Shown: positions 4,256 to 16,716 of the stretch, in pieces
How positions within the stretch are numbered: the stretch's first letter is position 1
How the letters are laid out: every line of letters starts with the position of its first letter
Virus record (IMG/VR): IMGVR_UViG_3300044609_001857
Coordinates: 1-29,082 of that record
Reading direction: 5' to 3' (one strand)
Origin: a virus
DNA length: 29,082 nucleotides
The notes under the pieces: model-generated
What the model was told of the DNA's origin: nothing
The model's database searches: none
What the model saw: the letters and a program-made list of their open reading frames with translations, nothing else
Position numbers and translations under genes: made by a program

Positions 4256-5200
4256 TCAGAGGTTGGCGAAGGGAAAGCGGGCGTCGAAGCGGCGGCAGAG
4301 CCGTTGGGCAATGTTGCGGTAGGCATCGAATTCCGAATGGAGCGGACCGATGAGACCAAGTGCAACTGGCCGCTTACTGCCGGTCCACCCGAGGTAATCC
4401 CAAAGGTAGATCAGTGCGTCTTTGGCGGTGGCCGTGCGTTTCGCTTGGGTCTTGTTCTTCTTGAATGAACCAAGGCAATCCACCTCGGCGGCCCGGCGGC
4501 AAAGCCCCAACACCGTGGCAAGGTGGTGAAGAAGTTTTTGGCGGTTGAGCGTGCCGGCAAAGACCCGGAATTCGATCACTCCGTGGGTGAAGAGTTTTTG
4601 GAAGTTGATCATTCCCCTGCCGCACTCGCGTGCAGCGCTTAACTTGCGCTTGGGGTCCTTGCGGCGGTGCATCTGGCGAACCAATTTCCCCACATCATCT
4701 CCGAGCATGTGGCTATAGCGGTTGAGGTGGCGGCCAGTGCCCGTTTGGCCATAGAGGCTCATGGCGTGCCAGCGGGTGATGTGAGCCAGCTTGCGGGCAA
4801 AGTCGCTCATCGCTTGCAGGTCTTCGGTGCCAATGATGGAGGCGACGCCCACGGTGATGTGGCAACCGCACGACGCGTTGACGTTGGCACCGATGGCATT
4901 GGCCCATTCGACGAATTCAATGAGGTGTTGCACTCCATCACTGCCACTGAGGATGGGTGAAACAAATTCGCATGCCGTACGGTCGGCACGGGCACGAATG
5001 GATCCATCGCGTTCAGCCCGCCAACACTCGCCATTGAATGTGGGCGCGTTGAGGGGCGCGGTGGATCCGGTGGCAACACCAGCTCTTACACTGATGCCGT
5101 TGTGGTAATTTCCGACCACCACGCCGGAGAGCACGGGGATGGTGGTTTCGAGTTCAACTCCGAAGGTAATGGCTTCGGCCTTCTTATCTGATGGTTTCAT
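4256..5200 (-). CDS. Amidoligase family protein (COOH-NH2 ligase)
   Basis: A 314-residue protein with the amidoligase (PF12224-type, glutamine-synthetase-like fold) signature blocks in order. FGVELET is at 13-19 (metal/ATP-binding glutamates). A WRAERDGSI...CEFVSPIL segment corresponds to 'W....D.S...E.VSP.L'. CGCHITVG carries the central His, and IEFRVFAGT the E.R pair near residue 210. Enzymes of this group use ATP to join a carboxylate to an amine. Their targets include peptides, small metabolites and, by proposal, modified nucleic acid or cell-surface groups. The gene follows a leader repeated in front of the ligase operon (5215-5336) and is directly followed by the GATase. Start ATG 5200 lacks a clear Shine-Dalgarno of its own, but the AGGAGG of the leader lies about 45 bp upstream. 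Family fairly secure, substrate unknown. Confidence 0.85.
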   Translation of the reverse strand: MKPSDKKAEAITFGVELETTIPVLSGVVVGNYHNGISVRAGVATGSTAPLNAPTFNGECWRAERDGSIRARADRTACEFVSPILSGSDGVQHLIEFVEWANAIGANVNASCGCHITVGVASIIGTEDLQAMSDFARKLAHITRWHAMSLYGQTGTGRHLNRYSHMLGDDVGKLVRQMHRRKDPKRKLSAARECGRGMINFQKLFTHGVIEFRVFAGTLNRQKLLHHLATVLGLCRRAAEVDCLGSFKKNKTQAKRTATAKDALIYLWDYLGWTGSKRPVALGLIGPLHSEFDAYRNIAQRLCRRFDARFPFANL

Positions 5201-5345: not shown

Positions 5346-6233
5346 TCAGGCGCTCATGTCCCAAGTTTCGCGGAAGCCGATGAACTTCGGAAACCGTGGC
5401 GCTTCTTTGGCACCGCTGGGCTGGTGGCTGAACTTCACCACGCGGCCAATCAGATCATCCTTGCGCATCCAGAGCGTGATACGGTCGATCCCGCCGATGA
5501 CATGGTTGTAGCCCAAGCGGAATTCGACGCCAGTGAATAGGTGGCGCACTACGAAGCCGCCAAGTTCGCCGCGACCGATCATGCCTGCCTGGCTCATGCT
5601 TCGCTTCGTACGGCCGAAGGCATCAAGTTCCGCTGCGTTCTGGTTGCTCATGCCCTCGTATGTGGACAACACGACGGCCTCCGCATCCTCGAAGCGTTTG
5701 ATCTTGAGCAACCATGCCTCGCGATCAGTGGACCGCCCGCATTTGTAGGGTGAATCCAGCGTGCGGACCATCACGCCCTCGTATCCGGCAGCGATGCACT
5801 CTTCCTCGTATGCGACCAGTTCGGCGACGTTGTGGATGAGGGTCGGCAGCACTTTCACGATGCACACCCAATTCGGCAGGGCGGCAAGTTGGTTCATTCT
5901 CTCCACATAGGGCGTGGTGACTGAATCGGCAACGTAGTCAAAGACATGGAAGACAAAATCCGGCTGACCATCACGGGCGCCGATGGCACTGGTGGTTTGA
6001 TTGAAGGTGCCGTCGCGTAGCATGAGTTCACCGTCCACACCATCGGGCAGGTTGGCCTCGATCCACTCGCGCACGAAGCGGTTGGAGATTGGCTTGAATG
6101 AGCGTGTCAGCGCTTTGCCACCGACCTTCAGACAACGAATGCCGTCGAGTTTTGGCGTGGCAAGCACGGGGAATGGAAGTTGGTCGGGCCGCTCGCACTT
6201 GCTGGCGAGCATCGGCTTGGTGATCGCGTTCAT
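5346..6233 (-). CDS. Minimal ATP-dependent DNA ligase
   Basis: A 295-residue phage-type ligase. Motif I KLDGIR (28-33) supplies the lysine that is adenylated. FVFHVFDYV is motif III, EGVMVR motif IV and WLLKIKRF motif V. The C-terminal part (about 200-295) has the length of an OB-fold domain. There are no accessory DNA-binding or nuclease domains, as in T7-like ligases. It seals nicks in duplex DNA during replication or repair. I prefer the ATG at 6233 because MNAITKPMLASK matches the usual 'KPMLA' opening. A TTG at 6260 overlapping the previous stop (TTGA) would add nine residues and would couple it to the upstream gene. It lies between two copies of the leader, with the amidoligase operon downstream. 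Confidence 0.88.
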   Translation of the reverse strand: MNAITKPMLASKCERPDQLPFPVLATPKLDGIRCLKVGGKALTRSFKPISNRFVREWIEANLPDGVDGELMLRDGTFNQTTSAIGARDGQPDFVFHVFDYVADSVTTPYVERMNQLAALPNWVCIVKVLPTLIHNVAELVAYEEECIAAGYEGVMVRTLDSPYKCGRSTDREAWLLKIKRFEDAEAVVLSTYEGMSNQNAAELDAFGRTKRSMSQAGMIGRGELGGFVVRHLFTGVEFRLGYNHVIGGIDRITLWMRKDDLIGRVVKFSHQPSGAKEAPRFPKFIGFRETWDMSA

Positions 6234-6256
6234 GGCAGAGAGGGTGAGTTGTAAAC

Positions 6257-6454
6257 TCAATCGTTGCGCAGGGCGTCGGTGATTTCCTCGTCATCGTAGC
6301 CGTCGATGGCATCGGAAAAAAGAAGGCGCACCGAGTGGATGTGCTTGGTGCTTTTGTTCGAGAACTCAATGTCGGAGATGAGTTGCTGCTGTTCGGTGGG
6401 GCTCAGTTTGGCGAAGGCGCTCAGGGCGTTCAGGAAGTATTCAATGTCGTTCAT
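6257..6454 (-). CDS. Small acidic hypothetical protein (65 aa)
   Basis: MNDIEYFLNALSAFAKLSPTEQQQ opens two predicted amphipathic helices, and the tail DGYDDEEITDALRND is strongly acidic. The frame is open further upstream, but that part translates the leader repeat. The ATG at 6454 is preferred because it overlaps the stop of the leader ORF (ATGA). It ends at the alternative TTG start of the DNA ligase, so the two genes form one unit. No family recognised. The helix-plus-acidic composition would suit a protein-binding or DNA-mimic role, but that is only a guess. Confidence 0.6.
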   Translation of the reverse strand: MNDIEYFLNALSAFAKLSPTEQQQLISDIEFSNKSTKHIHSVRLLFSDAIDGYDDEEITDALRND

Positions 6455-6489
6455 GGTTCTGTGTGCCGGAGGGATGTGCGTTCCGACAT
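6451..6489 (-). CDS. Possible 12-residue leader peptide (copy B)
   Basis: MSERTSLRHTEP, initiated after AGGAGGAAGG and ending in a TGA that overlaps the ATG of the 65-residue gene. The arrangement is that of a coupled leader peptide. It shares its first nine residues and its Shine-Dalgarno with the copy before the amidoligase. Expression is unproven. Confidence 0.35.
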   Translation of the reverse strand: MSERTSLRHTEP

Positions 6490-6600
6490 CCTTCCTCCTG
6501 CCAGCCACCCATCGCGATTGTCGCGCACCATCCGCACGTCAGTTCGCACCATATTGGTCGGCCATTTTTCGCGGCATACCATCGTTGGCATGCGGATTGG
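6467..6600 (-). promoter_or_regulatory. Duplicated leader, copy B
   Basis: The second copy of the leader at 5215-5336, with the same 41-bp block (6467-6507), the same hairpin (6472-6491) and the same 18-bp block (6583-6600). It also holds the near-palindrome GCATACCA-TCGT-TGGCATGC (6574-6593), which copy A has only on one side. It precedes the 65-residue gene and the DNA ligase. Confidence 0.6.
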
Positions 6601-6627
6601 GTAGATAAAAATGCCGCAGACAAGACT

Positions 6628-6708
6628 TCTTGACAGCCTCAGCTAATCCAAGGATATCTACATTTAAGCATATTTACATCAATCAACATTTTTCTTTAAT
6701 TAATCATC
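6628..6708 (+). promoter_or_regulatory. Candidate promoter of the AT-rich gene
   Basis: TTGACA at 6628-6633 is followed, about 19 bp on, by TATCTA and then an AT-rich leader with no Shine-Dalgarno before the ATG at 6709. Unlike the TTGACA elements of the late genes, this one is far (75 bp) from the start codon, so it fits a -35 box. The -10 match is poor. Confidence 0.35.
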
Positions 6709-7452
6709 ATGTCACCGAAATCCCAATGCATTGCTGATATCTGCGAGTTCCCTCCATTACCATGGACTCTACTCCAGGCGCTTTTCAAGGCTCAAGAACG
6801 ACGAATATTTCGGCAAGCACTTACAAAATCAAATTGGTTTCACTATAGACCATCTATAACCCCAATGGATTTTCACGACTATTTAATAAACCGATCCCAA
6901 ATAATCGAAAATTGGTTTCACTTCAGCAATATTGAAGATGCTTCTGGCCTCAACAATCGAAGGCTTTCTATGGACAGCAAAAAAAAAGTATATTTTTCGT
7001 ATGGTTACAGTGGTTTGAATTTATCTGAGCTTTGCGAACCAAGAACTGAATCAATCGAACCATATCTTCCAACGGCCTACTATATTTTTCGCTTATGCCA
7101 TCAACACAAAAGTATTGAAGACTGCATTTGGACAATTTGCCGAATACCTCAACTCAAATCCAAATCAGCCCCGGCATTTATTCTCCCGGACTGCGAGTAT
7201 GAATTCCATAGGAAAAATATATCGGTAGACAATATTCGAGATCATTTAATAAAACATCCAAATTTATTAAAAAATTGGCTTAGTCTTTGCAATAATTATG
7301 CTCAAGTATACCAAGATCAAAAGGATAAAAGTATGTATGTATATTATGGACCAAGGAAAGAAAAAACCTCTTCAGATTGTTATGCTCTAGTAGCTGAGCA
7401 AATAATCGATCTCTGCGATCTCGTGGTCAATTATAGAGAATCTAAAAATTAA
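6709..7452 (+). CDS. AT-rich unknown protein with internal repeat
   Basis: A 247-residue protein on the strand opposite to its neighbours and clearly much richer in A/T than the rest of the window, with many AAA, ATT and TAT codons. It contains two related halves. Residues about 52-140 begin DFHDYLINRSQIIENWFHFSN and pass through KKKVYFSYG. Residues about 172-245 begin DNIRDHLIKHPNLLKNWLSLCNN and pass through KSMYVYYG. No signal peptide, membrane segment or catalytic motif is visible, and I do not recognise the family. Odd composition, own promoter and opposite strand are what one expects of a moron, an independently acquired gene carried by a prophage, often for host defence or fitness. The function is open. 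Confidence 0.7.
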   Translation: MSPKSQCIADICEFPPLPWTLLQALFKAQERRIFRQALTKSNWFHYRPSITPMDFHDYLINRSQIIENWFHFSNIEDASGLNNRRLSMDSKKKVYFSYGYSGLNLSELCEPRTESIEPYLPTAYYIFRLCHQHKSIEDCIWTICRIPQLKSKSAPAFILPDCEYEFHRKNISVDNIRDHLIKHPNLLKNWLSLCNNYAQVYQDQKDKSMYVYYGPRKEKTSSDCYALVAEQIIDLCDLVVNYRESKN

Positions 7453-7547
7453 TTCCTCAACATTGGAATAAGGAACACAATTATTCTCGAAGTCGCCAGT
7501 CGGCATAAGGATTAGACGGAATAAGAAAAAACCATTAGGATAAAAGC
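7453..7547. other. AT-rich intergenic stretch
   Basis: No gene. It contains GGCATAAGGATTAGAC (7504-7519), which resembles the GGCATGCGGATTGG element of the two leaders, and a run of A-rich sequence before the ATG at 7548. It may hold the promoter of the following small gene, but no clear -35/-10 pair is seen. Confidence 0.35.
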
Positions 7548-7784
7548 ATGAACGAGAACGACGACGTAATCGCACATGATCCAATCGAAGACGATCCGGT
7601 AATGGGGCCTCTCGTAAAACAAGCCGAAGAGGAAGCAATCGCAGCCTTAGCAAAGGAAGGCATCATGCTGAACATGGGACACTGCTACGCGGTTTGGGGA
7701 AAACAAAAACAGATTCTCAAGGAGCGTCACGGCATCGATTGGAAGGCGCCGGATGAAATGAACCCGATGATCATATTTGATTGA
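7548..7784 (+). CDS. Small conserved-looking protein (78 aa)
   Basis: The protein is acidic at the start (NENDDVIAHDPIEDD). An amphipathic helix follows (PLVKQAEEEAIAALAKEG), then HCYAVWGKQKQILKERHGIDWKAPDEMNP. The 'G.C...W...K.ILKE..GI.W..P.E.NP' pattern is typical of short phage or plasmid proteins of unknown function. It has normal base composition, unlike the AT-rich gene 95 bp upstream, so it was probably not acquired with it. There is no good Shine-Dalgarno before ATG 7548. Function unknown. Confidence 0.6.
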   Translation: MNENDDVIAHDPIEDDPVMGPLVKQAEEEAIAALAKEGIMLNMGHCYAVWGKQKQILKERHGIDWKAPDEMNPMIIFD

Positions 7785-7831
7785 TCGCCAGTTCTCAATG
7801 CAAGAGGTGAGAAGACCTAGCAAATCGTCCA

Positions 7832-8113
7832 TCAATACTCACTCGGCAGCAAGATCGTCGTCGTCGACCTGTCGTGCTCGGTGATGATGTAGAGCCGGTC
7901 GCCAGCGGGTGTGCGGTAGCAACTCAATAGCCGGAACCCATCGTCGAGCGCTTCATCATTTGTTCTGCGATCCTCGTCGCAGAGTGCTTCGCCCCAATCT
8001 CCGCAGTGGTGGCGTCGCAGGTATTGGGTCAGGTCGACATCGAGTGCGATGGCACCGGGGGTGGCGAATATTTTACCCAGCGGGAAGCGGGGTTGCATCA
8101 GGTGTATGCCCAT
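7832..8113 (-). CDS. FPLG...ATPGA family plasmid/phage protein
   Basis: A 93-residue protein with the recurring pattern RFPLGKIFATPGAIAL, then RHHCGDWGE, DEDRRTNDEAL, GFRLLSCYRT and ITEHDRSTTTILLPSEY. I know this pattern from short conserved proteins on plasmids, integrative elements and phages, where it has no assigned activity. The compact alpha/beta layout with conserved GDWG and DR..T suggests a folded single domain. It lies 25 bp downstream of the MgsA-C-like gene in the same direction, and such genes often lie near one another in mobile elements. Family recognition is good, function unknown. Confidence 0.75.
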   Translation of the reverse strand: MGIHLMQPRFPLGKIFATPGAIALDVDLTQYLRRHHCGDWGEALCDEDRRTNDEALDDGFRLLSCYRTPAGDRLYIITEHDRSTTTILLPSEY

Positions 8114-8138
8114 GGGGATTTCAGTGGTTGGGGGTTAG

Positions 8139-8696
8139 TTAGGAATCAATGAGGTTGTCGAACAGGCCGGGAATGAAGGGCGCTAGGGCGTCTTGCTCCT
8201 GGCGGAAAAACTCGGCTTTGGTTTTGCCCATCCTACGGCCCTGCGGCGTGTGGCAGTCATATGCGTAGTCGGGTATGGGAACGTATTGACCCGCCTGTTC
8301 GAGTTCGTCGGTCAGCGTGGAAGCATCAAGCCCGGCCTGCTGGTCATAGACGAAGTTTTGAAGATGGTCGGCATCGCGGCTCTTCTTGGCCATGCAGAGA
8401 AGGATGATCGCTTTGGATATGAAGATGCGCCCCTTGGGTTTTCCTTTGGGCACATGCTGATTGATCTCGGTGTAGCTGTCGTGCAGGGCCTTTGTTTCCG
8501 CCGTGAGGATTCCCCAGCAGTCTTCTGCGCTCACAGTGAGCAAGCGCCGCCAGACATACTGACCAAATCCACTGGCCCAAAGTTCAAGTGCCCAGTAGCC
8601 GGCAAGTTTGGCATCGCCGCGCCGAATGGCTTTCTGCATGGCGCTGGAAACCGCTGGGAATGAATATCCGCGTATGGTGTTGAGGTGATAACTCAT
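8139..8696 (-). CDS. Stand-alone MgsA/RarA C-terminal-like protein
   Basis: A 185-residue protein whose first half (GYSFPAVSSAMQKAIRRGDAKLAGYWALELWASGFGQYVWRRLLTVSAEDCWG) matches the C-terminal helical domain of the RarA/MgsA clamp-loader-like ATPases. In those enzymes 'S..QKAIR.GD...A..W..EL...G...Y..RRL...A.ED.G' forms the tetramerisation and replication-fork contact region. The AAA+ ATPase part is missing. Conserved late blocks include PIPDYAYDCHTPQGRRMGKT. Free-standing versions occur on plasmids and phages and probably act with DNA replication or repair, perhaps by replacing or blocking host RarA. ATG 8696 is preceded by a 57-bp gap after the glycosyltransferase gene. Confidence 0.75.
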   Translation of the reverse strand: MSYHLNTIRGYSFPAVSSAMQKAIRRGDAKLAGYWALELWASGFGQYVWRRLLTVSAEDCWGILTAETKALHDSYTEINQHVPKGKPKGRIFISKAIILLCMAKKSRDADHLQNFVYDQQAGLDASTLTDELEQAGQYVPIPDYAYDCHTPQGRRMGKTKAEFFRQEQDALAPFIPGLFDNLIDS

Positions 8697-8753: not shown

Positions 8754-9545
8754 TCAGACCTTCACTGATTGGCGGCGTGGTGCGTCCATCGAAACGCGGT
8801 CCTGGCTCTTGTAGTTTTCGAGGCGGATGTGGGCCTTCCATTTGCGCTTGAGGTAGCGCTTCTCGGTGGCAATGCGTTCCTCACTGCGAAACAAGCTGTT
8901 GCCCCCAAGGTTCTTGTCGCGCTCTTGCACGAAACAGAACCTCGCTTCGTTCCAGACAAGGCGGTTGTCCATCAACTCCTGGAGCGTGGCATCGATGTCG
9001 CACTTGCACTTGAGAAGCTCGTCCCACTTCGGTACGCCGCCATTCTCATCGCGCACCACACCCACAGCCCCGCCGACCCAATGGTTCACGCCAAACGGAT
9101 CATTGCGTTGAAGGAGCCTGGGATCGCTTCGTTGGTGCCAGCCAAACAAACGGGCCCCTGCCCCACGCGCTGACCATGCCGAGTTCTCGATCATCGCTTG
9201 GGTTTCTTCGATCGACAGTTTTCTACACCTGAGGCTGACCATGCAGACGCAGGCTGAAATGTCATCGTCGAGCATGACGATCGCATCATCAGTGAAGTGT
9301 TTCAAAACCCAGTTCCTCACCGCGCTGATGCCGGCAATCTCATCGGGAATGGTTTCAATCTCCAACCCGGTGTGGGCGTAATGTTCAGCTTCGCTTGCGG
9401 GAACCAGCAGCGTTGCCGTGGGAAACAACTTGTGGCTCGTGATCGAGCGGCTCCGGCTTCGGCTTAGAATCAAGAGCCTGAGTTTCAGCGGGCGCAATTC
9501 CGGCCATGCTGGCACGGCGGCAGAGTTCGAGGAGTCGTTTTCCAT
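8754..9545 (-). CDS. TAGT-like glycosyltransferase (GT-A fold)
   Basis: A 263-residue protein (start ATG 9545). It has the opening LRLLILSRSRSRSIT, then LVPASEAEHY, IPDEIAGISAVRNWVLKHF and a VMLDDDIS acidic triad at 93-95. This order matches the TET/JBP-associated glycosyltransferases (TAGT) of phages, in which the DDD binds metal and sugar nucleotide. A later GVNHWVGGAVGVV and DIDATLQELMDNRLVW fit acceptor and catalytic loops. Known relatives are thought to glycosylate hydroxymethylated bases in DNA. No TET/JBP oxygenase or hydroxymethylase is in the window. The first 160 bp overlap the ParB-like gene out of frame, so the two are coupled. An earlier ATG (9599) lies deeper in ParB and would add low-complexity residues. 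Confidence 0.75.
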   Translation of the reverse strand: MENDSSNSAAVPAWPELRPLKLRLLILSRSRSRSITSHKLFPTATLLVPASEAEHYAHTGLEIETIPDEIAGISAVRNWVLKHFTDDAIVMLDDDISACVCMVSLRCRKLSIEETQAMIENSAWSARGAGARLFGWHQRSDPRLLQRNDPFGVNHWVGGAVGVVRDENGGVPKWDELLKCKCDIDATLQELMDNRLVWNEARFCFVQERDKNLGGNSLFRSEERIATEKRYLKRKWKAHIRLENYKSQDRVSMDAPRRQSVKV

Positions 9546-10164
9546 GGATAACACGGCCGAGGCCGATTTTTTTGGTTCTGCGGGTGATGGAGTAGTCAAC
9601 CTCTCCCACCCCCATCAGTTGGAGTGCCTGCATCCAGTCACGCAGGTCGTGGAACATGAAGACGAGGTAGTCGTGGTGTTCGAACGCCTGGCATTCCATG
9701 CGTGGAATCATTTCCATTTCGTCCTCCGGGTTGGCGGCTTCGTCCATGAGCTTGCGGATCTCATCGTCCATGAATCCGGTGAGCTCGAGGTCGAAGCTTG
9801 GATCGGATTCGCCAATCGATTTGAGAACCCGGCGCAATTCGTCCTCATCGAGTTCGGCCAATTCCGACAGGCGGTTGTCGGCCAGAAGATCGGCAAGCTC
9901 CTCCGCCTCACTTGCATAGTCCTGCTCATCCACTGGGATTGTTTCGCACCCAATCAAAAGTGCGGCCTCCAAGCGGCCATGCCCCCGAACAATCAGCCCG
10001 GAGCGCTTGGATACGGTGACGGGATTGCGCCACCCCTGCTCCTGGATGATCGACGCGAGAAGTTGGATTTGGTGGGCGCTGTGGCGGTTCGGGTTAACCG
10101 GGTTGGGTTTCAGCGTGTTGGGATCAAGGAGGCGAGTGTGGGCGCAATGCACGGGAATGCTCAT
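9385..10164 (-). CDS. ParB-like nuclease-fold protein
   Basis: A 259-residue protein. Residues 10-100 form a ParB/sulfiredoxin-fold domain: LKPNPVNPNRHS, ASIIQEQGWRNPVTVS, and LIVRGHGRLEAALLIG with the GHGR motif. An acidic helix (EEAEELADLLADNRLSELAELDEDELRRVL) follows. After that comes a second part with EHHDYLVFMFHDLRDWMQALQLMG and VDYSITRRTKKIGLGRVIHGKRLLE, a C-terminal extension seen in phage ParB-like proteins. No methyltransferase is fused to it. Phage proteins of this kind often sit with DNA-modification genes and may direct or gate modification. ATG 10164 is preceded by TTGACG with a 14-nt gap. It is the first gene of the leftward set and its end overlaps the glycosyltransferase by about 160 bp. 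Confidence 0.85.
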   Translation of the reverse strand: MSIPVHCAHTRLLDPNTLKPNPVNPNRHSAHQIQLLASIIQEQGWRNPVTVSKRSGLIVRGHGRLEAALLIGCETIPVDEQDYASEAEELADLLADNRLSELAELDEDELRRVLKSIGESDPSFDLELTGFMDDEIRKLMDEAANPEDEMEMIPRMECQAFEHHDYLVFMFHDLRDWMQALQLMGVGEVDYSITRRTKKIGLGRVIHGKRLLELCRRASMAGIAPAETQALDSKPKPEPLDHEPQVVSHGNAAGSRKRS

Positions 10165-14907: not shown

Positions 14908-14964
14908 GATACACTCAAAATGAAAAATACACTTGCAAAGTGTATCCAAGAATAATAGTGTATC
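14908..14964. promoter_or_regulatory. Nested palindromic operator of the AbiE-like cassette
   Basis: An inner perfect inverted repeat ATACACTT-GCA-AAGTGTAT (14927-14945) and outer half-sites GATACACT (14908-14915) and AGTGTATC (14957-14964) share exactly the same centre (14936). The half-sites are 18 bp apart on each side. This matches AbiEi-type antitoxins, which bind two inverted repeats cooperatively to repress their own operon. A weak promoter, TTGCAA (14933-14938) with TAGTGT 17 bp later, would lie inside the operator and start transcription almost at the ATG. Confidence 0.7.
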
Positions 14965-14968
14965 CCCA

Positions 14969-15943
14969 ATGAAGCGCACCCTGCCAGCTCTGGTAGAATA
15001 CCTTGAAAAGCTGACCGGCAGCCCCGTGGACCTCGCACCTGCCGAACCTCGGAGTCTGCCTCTTTTCCTGCGTGAACGCTTTCAACTCCACCAAGGAGAC
15101 ATCTTTGGTCGAAGCTTTATCTTCGCCATCGACAGGTGGGGCGAGCAAGACCCATCCGCCGTCAACTACGCCAATCTAACCGAGTGCTTGAGTGGCCATC
15201 TGGGAGATTCAGTCGTTCTGGTCCTACCTGGCCTCGCCCCGCACATTCGCCAAGGCCTCATCCGCTTGGGGCGTCCGTTCATCGTTCCCGGCAGTCAGAC
15301 CTTCCTGCCCACCGCCATTATCGATCTGCGGGAGCGGCAACCTGGCGTACTTCCCACCGCAAAAACACTCAGCCCGGCGGCTCAATGTGTCCTCCTCTAC
15401 CATCTGGAGCGAGAGAGCATCCACCATTGGCCACTGCAAAAGGTGGCCGAAGCCGTCGGCTACTCGCCCAACATGCTCATTAAAGTGAAGCGCGAACTGG
15501 AAGCAGCGGAACTTTGCGATCCCGTGCGCAACGGCCGCGTTGTCACCCTGCGCTTTCATGTCGAGCGTCGGGCACTGTGGCAAAAGGCCCTGCCTTGGCT
15601 GGCCTCGCCGGTCCGCGCCACCCACTGGGTCCGTTGGGAACAACCACCAACGCAAGCCCTCATGGCTGGCATGACAGCACTCAGCCACGCAACGATGATC
15701 GTCGATGACCGCACGCCCGTGTATGCCCTTCATCACAAGGCATCCAAAGACAATGCTTTCGAAATCTGTGCCGACCGCATCGATGCCACGGCCAGACTCG
15801 AAATTTGGAATTACAACCCGCGATTGCTCACCATCCGCGAGGAAATGGTGGATCCCCTTTCGCTCTTTCTCAGCCTGCGACACGATCCAAATGAGCGCGT
15901 TCAGGACCAACTCGAAACACTCATCGAACAATTCCCATGGTAA
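14969..15943 (+). CDS. AbiEi-like antitoxin / autorepressor
   Basis: A 324-residue protein. Its central winged helix (about 145-195: LSPAAQCVLLYHLE...PLQKVAEAVGYSPNMLIKVKRELEAAELC) is of the MarR/AbiEi type. The sequence after it (RRALWQKALPWLASPVRATHWVRW...LMAGMTALSHATMI) follows the pattern of regulators paired with nucleotidyltransferase toxins. I set the start at ATG 14969, because a TTG at 14933 would place coding sequence on the operator. The gene has no Shine-Dalgarno and may be read from a nearly leaderless message. It overlaps the next gene (ATGGTAA), as toxin-antitoxin pairs do. In known AbiE systems the antitoxin neutralises indirectly and represses the operon. It lies within the phage late operon but carries its own control. 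Confidence 0.75.
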   Translation: MKRTLPALVEYLEKLTGSPVDLAPAEPRSLPLFLRERFQLHQGDIFGRSFIFAIDRWGEQDPSAVNYANLTECLSGHLGDSVVLVLPGLAPHIRQGLIRLGRPFIVPGSQTFLPTAIIDLRERQPGVLPTAKTLSPAAQCVLLYHLERESIHHWPLQKVAEAVGYSPNMLIKVKRELEAAELCDPVRNGRVVTLRFHVERRALWQKALPWLASPVRATHWVRWEQPPTQALMAGMTALSHATMIVDDRTPVYALHHKASKDNAFEICADRIDATARLEIWNYNPRLLTIREEMVDPLSLFLSLRHDPNERVQDQLETLIEQFPW

Positions 15944-16716
15944 GAGGACTCGACCTGTTGCGCGAACGCATGAAACCGCATGAGGGCTCCATCGTGTTGA
16001 TCGGTGGTGCGGCCTGCGACGATTGGTTCTCCCGCCAATCACTCCAGTTCCGTGCCACCCAGGATCTGGACATCGTCCTTATCGTGGAGCTGCTCGGTGC
16101 TGGAGCGATCGAAACCCTCCGCCGTTTCATCCGCGATGGCCAATATGAAACTCGCGCCCGCAGCAACGGCAAACCTGAGCTCTACCGCTTTGCCAACCCC
16201 AAAGACCCGCGTTTCCCTAAAGAACTCGAACTGTTTAGTCGTGGACCGGAAAACATCGACCTCGCTCCTGGGGAAACATTGCCGGTCATCACTGATGAGG
16301 ATTATCACAGCCTGTCTGCCATACTTCTGGATGATAGATACTATGAGTTGATTCGCGTTCACCACGACATCCATGATGGACTTCACTTCGCCAACGCCAC
16401 TTCCCTGATCCCACTCAAGGCCTTCGCATGGCTCGACTTGAAGCGCCGCACGGCCGAAGGCGAAAAGATAGATTCACAAAAGATCAAGAAACACCGCGCC
16501 GATGTCTTTCGCCTTGCCGCTACGCTTCCTGCCGAACCGGGCCCCGAATTGGCGGTAGAAATTCGCAAGGACCTTGGCCGCTTCATGCAGGCCTTCCCAC
16601 CGGACTCCACGGATTGGCAAGGCATCCTCGCCGCAGTCAAAGGCACCGTGGGTGTGAACCTGTCCTCCACAGCTCTGCGTGATGCCATTTTCTCTTACTT
16701 CCGCCTAACCGACTAG
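15937..16716 (+). CDS. AbiEii-like nucleotidyltransferase toxin
   Basis: A 259-residue protein with a nucleotidyltransferase-fold signature. IVLIGGAACDDWF (19-31) is followed by RATQDLDIVL (about 40-49), which supplies the DxD metal-binding aspartates, and a third acidic residue is expected later. The wording SLIPLKAFAWLDLKRRTAEG...KKHRADVFRL (about 150-195) is the helical part typical of AbiEii/MNT-like proteins (PF08843-type). Such toxins transfer nucleotides, reported for tRNA or GTP binding, and stop growth on phage infection. ATG 15937 overlaps the antitoxin stop. The gene is followed by a terminator, so the cassette is a closed unit. Confidence 0.75.
   Translation: MVRGLDLLRERMKPHEGSIVLIGGAACDDWFSRQSLQFRATQDLDIVLIVELLGAGAIETLRRFIRDGQYETRARSNGKPELYRFANPKDPRFPKELELFSRGPENIDLAPGETLPVITDEDYHSLSAILLDDRYYELIRVHHDIHDGLHFANATSLIPLKAFAWLDLKRRTAEGEKIDSQKIKKHRADVFRLAATLPAEPGPELAVEIRKDLGRFMQAFPPDSTDWQGILAAVKGTVGVNLSSTALRDAIFSYFRLTD

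Follow-up and report, generated by a model that had tools for sequence, protein, structure and literature searches.

Results

An AT-rich ORF of foreign composition

The window, an entire virus record of 29,082 bases, contains a single uninterrupted plus-strand ORF of 247 codons between the o83 and o78 ORFs (Table 1). The longest open frame in the surrounding stretch (6601–7493) has 250 codons, as compared to a maximum of 182 codons among 2000 dinucleotide shuffles. The GC content of the ORF is 36.4%, against a mean of 56.6% (sd 2.3) for 31 other ORFs of the window, and its third-position GC is 31%, against a mean of 69%; these 31 ORFs were chosen by us, and o78 (GC 48.9%) was excluded from the mean. 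The sharp difference in composition described in an earlier sequence-only reading is thus real. A second record, IMGVR_UViG_3300034063_001730 (30,836 bases), is identical to the window over 7,273 bases including the ORF, which is therefore unlikely to be an assembly error, and the two records may derive from related samples. An 81-base direct repeat with 79% identity (1187–1267 and 2649–2728) lies outside these common bases.

Table 1. Coordinates of the features in and around the variable slot of the window
Feature	Positions	Strand	Basis
Amidoligase gene, left slot border	4256–5200	-	Amidoligase_2, E 3.6e-10
Slot element, second class B copy, upstream of the amidoligase gene	5204–5340		
Gene for an ATP-dependent DNA ligase, itself a variable slot member	5346–6260	-	Pfam, PHROGs; 18 of the 43 slots have a ligase match
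o83 (start taken as 6454), preceding the ligase gene	6257–6454	-	ORF list, relatives
Slot element, class B copy, upstream of o83	6455–6600		
AT-rich stretch containing the AT-rich ORF	6601–7493		GC 36%; missing in the phage of contig L004/L127
AT-rich ORF, orphan	6709–7452	+	247 aa; open frame, composition, shuffles, no family match
Repeat unit 1 (residues 7–138)	6727–7122	+	34 of 100 pairs identical when aligned to unit 2; shuffles
Repeat unit 2 (residues 139–247)	7123–7449	+	As for unit 1; model of low confidence (mean pLDDT 57)
Class A element remnant, in front of o78	7494–7547		Alignment to the stretch before o78 in L004, L021, L044, L182 and L133
o78, small ORF adjoining the AT-rich ORF	7548–7784	+	Found in relatives without the AT-rich ORF
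o93 (93 aa), right slot border	7832–8113	-	Relatives

Between 2888 and 6454, and again between 7832 and 10164, the likely genes run on the minus strand. The AT-rich ORF is therefore opposite to these genes, as the earlier reading had it, but not to the next ORF on its right, o78, which lies on the same strand. Independently of the AT-rich ORF, a few relatives retain this small, acidic ORF, which matches no family in the libraries searched.

The proposal that the gene has its own promoter-like element was not confirmed by the scan. A sigma-70-like site upstream of the ORF matches at 9 of 12 positions, but such sites are no more frequent than expected by chance (6 in 6200–8200, as compared to 3.8, sd 1.6, in shuffles), and the TTGACA at 6630 has a -10 partner that, read by eye, matches at just 3 of 6 positions. 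No clear ribosome-binding site was seen for the ORF, and the single terminator-like site found is at 6328–6351.

The ORF occupies a variable slot in a phage family

The core gene at 8142–8696 (MgsA C-terminal type) has 103 relatives in viral contigs (80 retained) as well as 54 loci in genome contigs. Nearly all of the 54 genome loci are from Verrucomicrobiota (Akkermansiaceae, Akkermansia, Prosthecobacter, Chthoniobacter and MAGs), with one from an Acidobacteriia MAG, and we infer from these loci that the host of the window phage would be a Verrucomicrobiota-type bacterium. In the contigs inspected, the recurring order is TerS, ParB-like, glycosyltransferase, MgsA-like and o93, followed by ligase and/or amidoligase, and glutamine amidotransferase. 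The o93 gene is restricted to the nearer relatives, and the variable place is that between o93 and the amidoligase gene. The glycosyltransferase gene of the window (8754–9599, minus strand), beside the ParB-like gene, is related to the TET-associated/HMC-DNA glucosyltransferases (Pfam TAGT, E 1.7e-6; PHROG 842, E 1.3e-10), a likeness suggesting that the phage may modify its own DNA with sugar.

A close comparison is provided by contig L004 (= L127), which is 95.6% identical to the window over 6,300 bases on the right and 95.7% over 1,098 bases on the left, with 129 bases between the two matches where the window has 2,145. This phage lacks the ligase gene, o83 and the AT-rich ORF, and keeps o78; the blastn matches of L127 to the window stop at 5348 and restart at 7494. 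In contig L005 (94.7% identity on the right, 91.5% on the left), the slot contains a ligase fragment and another ORF.

We collected 43 contigs, including the window, that carry both o93 and the amidoligase gene; duplicates were removed by hand, and near-identical contigs of other samples were kept. Besides the ligase, the slot measures at most 420 bases in 12 of the 43 contigs and more than 600 bases in 25. A ligase match is present in 18 slots, and 16 of these matches span 800 bases or more. Among the 43 slots the AT-rich ORF occurs in the window alone, and over all of the loci collected the identical copy is its one further occurrence. The lowest 400-base GC contents are 32.5% in L170, 33.8% in the window and 37.0% in L043, indicating that AT-rich cargo occurs elsewhere in the slot as well. 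The L170 slot contains a PIN-like ORF and a 490-aa ORF, which clusters with a repeat-rich ORF of L073.

Ten cargo proteins of the relatives were picked by eye, a non-random choice that shows kinds of genes, not frequencies. Four (two from L022, and those of L039 and L043) are from contigs with o93, and the other six are from contigs of the wider family that lack an o93 match, with the slot equated by position only; the L039, L155 and L166 stretches reach the contig end. Pfam (E up to 0.001) names six of the ten, as a DUF4143/AAA_14 ATPase and a PIN protein (both L022), an HNH protein (L039, with an additional EVE line below the cut-off), HipA (L075), Exo_endo_phos (L057) and Gp49 (L166), and has no match for those of L043, L143, L155 and L083. 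PADLOC (E up to 0.01) places the L022 ATPase under the candidate system PDC-S01 (2.2e-92) and the L155 protein as a type II methyltransferase (4.5e-148), with weak lines for the HNH protein (type IV restriction enzyme, 1e-5), the Gp49 protein (NsnC, 4e-5) and HipA (two lines), and has no match for the other five. Several of the ten therefore match toxin, restriction or candidate-defence families, and the slot also holds ORFs without any link to conflict. Like the AT-rich ORF, seven of the ten lie on the strand opposite to that of the core operon, with L043, L083 and L057 as exceptions.

Elsewhere in the window, two overlapping plus-strand ORFs (14933–16716) lie between the portal-like and protease-like genes and have no Pfam or PADLOC match. 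The second may resemble an AbiEii-kind nucleotidyltransferase, so that the two may form another cargo pair.

A conserved element marks the slot

The slot is marked by the motif CGTTGGCATGCGGATTGG or near variants of it. With up to 4 mismatches, 58 of the 64 contigs with o93 have the motif beyond o93 and, if the contig includes an amidoligase gene, ahead of that gene; in 45 of these 58 the first copy lies 9–16 bases after o93. It is present in 41 of the 43 full slots (two or more copies in 33) and absent from L080 and L135; five contigs have copies outside the slot. Counting both strands, 60 contigs with o93 hold 130 copies, as compared to 3 copies in 3 contigs for the reversed control motif. 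The motif is rare in ten host genomes searched with up to 1 mismatch: five contained a total of 22 matches, some of which lie in contigs already collected as phage relatives, and the other five contained none; the reversed control gave none.

The surrounding sequences fall into two classes, A (56 copies) and B (53 copies), with 3 left over. Class B contains the motif as an imperfect inverted repeat, the arms being separated by a spacer, and its copies lie upstream of o83, the ligase gene or the amidoligase gene in the contigs inspected. In the window, the AT-rich ORF is located between a class B copy and the class A remnant. When aligned, 52 class A and 50 class B sequences exhibited mostly conserved primary sequence with few predicted pairs, and Rfam gave no structured RNA match over the window. 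An integron attC site was considered for the element, compared by eye, and rejected. The element may be a promoter, an operator or a stretch of homology for recombination.

The protein consists of two diverged copies of one unit

The encoded protein consists of two diverged copies of one unit of about 110–130 residues, with 34 of 100 aligned pairs identical. With BLOSUM62 and gap costs of 11/1, the two halves align with scores of 62–66 at three cut points, as compared to maxima of 52–53 among 2000 shuffles of the second half at each cut. With gap costs of 8/1, and taking the best among eight cut points, the observed score is 87 and is reached by none of 500 shuffles of the whole protein, the maximum of which is 66. 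The tandem repeat noticed in the earlier reading is thus genuine, and extends further than had been described. The units share C-I-x2-I-C, D-x-L-I, N-W, D-x-K, Y-x2-Y-G and L-C, the shared positions being mainly hydrophobic, aromatic, Cys, N-W and Y-G, and we recognised no catalytic motif in either. Tandem Repeats Finder detected no tandem array in the DNA; the repeat exists at the protein level, and the duplication is therefore probably old. Inside unit 1, an exact 14-base direct repeat (6831–6844 and 6909–6922, 78 bases apart) encodes N-W-F-H twice. The protein has a pI of 8.3 and no strongly hydrophobic stretch, the highest 19-residue mean being 1.16.

The whole protein folded alone gave a mean pLDDT of 38, and unit 2 predicted with unit 1 in the alignment gave 57. 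Both predictions are too poor to provide a fold, and the helix-helix-strand-strand-helix layout predicted for unit 2 is a hint only. Fold searches with this unit-2 model yielded nothing significant (best E 1.4 in the PDB and 0.45 among viral structures). Its best VIA match had a Z of 2.9, with 4.7 A over 63 residues; RNA polymerase subunit rows at Z 2.2–2.9 were rejected as too weak.

Searches for families and homologues

The protein has no accepted match in Pfam, PHROGs, PADLOC, NCBIfam or the PDB sequences, in agreement with its earlier assignment to no known family, and none of the PADLOC models reached it at E up to 5. DUF7348 for the whole protein (E 0.15) and zf-UBP_var for unit 2 (E 0.08–0.13), the only lines obtained, were rejected as far below the cut-off. 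No match was obtained by tblastn among 50,697 phage and 72,556 plasmid records. Pattern scans, which detect close relatives only, returned just the identical copy from the viral contigs and nothing from the genome contigs.

We also searched genomes at E up to 0.01. The whole protein had no match in 387 genomes from the phylum of an Akkermansiaceae MAG (G003), nor did a two-unit profile in 260 genomes from the family of the same MAG or in 396 from the phylum of an Acidobacteriia MAG (G398); these sets are samples of two phyla, and distant relatives elsewhere are possible. The same query recovered its own copy with an E of 1e-176. With the threshold relaxed to E 1, 10 genomes gave five matches in three genomes (E 0.07 to 0.6), which we judged to be chance: one is short and contains a stop, and four match one stretch of long ORFs. 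One of these long ORFs, by our reading, resembles a glycoside hydrolase.

Homology to a structural or metabolic protein was not seen in the libraries searched. Neither was decay in relatives, but the gene has no relatives in which decay could appear. The layout of the protein may resemble that of the CdiI immunity proteins. PF18593 (CdiI) was sought in one host genome, where the match was below the cut-off, and a control gave matches in 4 of 14 genomes, with 1 above the cut-off; this search does not address the AT-rich ORF.

Discussion

Origin and possible function of the AT-rich ORF

How did the ORF come to lie in this phage, and what could it do there? Its foreign composition, its absence from a phage with about 95.6% identity and the widely varying slot content of the relatives justify calling it a moron. 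By definition, a phage moron has its own promoter and terminator. Like the morons, the AT-rich ORF is a single foreign gene inserted between conserved phage genes, on the opposite strand and with a different composition, and it is present here and missing in close relatives; unlike them, it has no promoter or terminator of its own detected by our scan. We consider it very probable that the gene was acquired, and propose that it entered horizontally as an accessory gene of the moron type, into the variable cargo slot of a Verrucomicrobiota phage family.

We further propose that the gene may serve in the conflict among phage, host and other phages, in a defence, immunity or toxin-antitoxin role. 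The chance of such a function, judged from position, is about even. This role is suggested because the slot of the relatives, or the matching slot of the wider family, carries PIN, DUF4143 ATPase, HNH, HipA, Gp49 and type II methyltransferase proteins. The earlier idea of an anti-phage or immunity function is therefore consistent with the cargo of the relatives, but the protein itself matches no such family. As a guess from its architecture, the protein might bind a partner through two copies of a small domain, and not be an enzyme. The combination of an acquired slot gene, a conflict function and a two-unit binder we rate at slightly below even. Against it stands that the protein has no family, fold or homologue for any function, and the shared Cys/His could also mean a metal site.

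Among the other explanations, a catalytically acting orphan conflict enzyme, such as a restriction-type nuclease or a toxin, is unlikely. The slot of the relatives does contain an HNH endonuclease, a type II methyltransferase and ribonuclease-type toxins, and restriction nucleases are often without recognisable relatives; however, the protein matches no nuclease family or fold, no family-matching methyltransferase or antitoxin adjoins the ORF, and the D-x-K present in each unit is too common a pattern to count. The ORF adjoins genes of early or DNA-modification type (the ligase, the ParB-like gene and a glycosyltransferase related to DNA-sugar enzymes), as would suit an anti-defence or host-takeover gene expressed during infection and not from the prophage. 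Its strand is opposite to that operon, however, and it has no anti-defence match, in libraries that contain few such families; we hold this reading to be fairly unlikely.

A functionless passenger heading to decay would account for the foreign composition, the want of a convincing promoter or clear ribosome-binding site, and the shrinkage of the class A element before o78 to a remnant. The frame is nevertheless intact over 247 codons, and we regard such a passenger as quite unlikely; that the frame is unchanged in two assemblies, from possibly related samples, says little about selection. An ordinary structural or replication protein, diverged beyond recognition, is very improbable: nothing specific favours it beyond the lack of homologues, the composition is unlike that of the 31 ORFs compared, and its absence from a phage with about 95.6% identity that retains the surrounding core genes comes close to refuting it.

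The slot and its element among known systems

Phage hotspots have been described as fixed genome places with accessory genes that differ among phages, defence genes included (PMC9122126, 2022). The present slot is likewise a fixed place with varying accessory genes, candidate defence genes among them. The activity of the systems was tested there, while the content of our slot is predicted from sequence; in addition, the phages and flanking genes are others, and a conserved intergenic element lies at the borders. A narrow literature search, directed at phage hotspots and at the prophages and phages of Verrucomicrobiota, returned, in the portions of the papers covered, none on this slot.

The layout of the class B element resembles that of the start-associated and extended start-associated sequences of the Cluster K mycobacteriophages, which are imperfect inverted repeats of about 17 bp with a variable spacer, near start codons (PMC3203893). 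Both are family-specific intergenic repeats, but the sequences are unrelated, and the present element is clustered in one cargo slot and forms two longer classes.

As a more far-reaching reading, which we consider doubtful, the protein would be the founder of a new family of conflict proteins built from two units, with a role in defence, in immunity or as an antitoxin; the slot would be an unreported defence/toxin hotspot of Verrucomicrobiota phages, and the element would act both as a common control region and as homology through which cassettes are exchanged. Prophage cargo slots are a source of new anti-phage systems. The AT-rich ORF is one candidate, phage cargo of a familiar type that encodes an orphan protein, and the element-marked slot of these Verrucomicrobiota phages is a more useful by-product than the ORF itself: its borders are recognisable by the conserved element, and its cargo can thereby be collected and tested.
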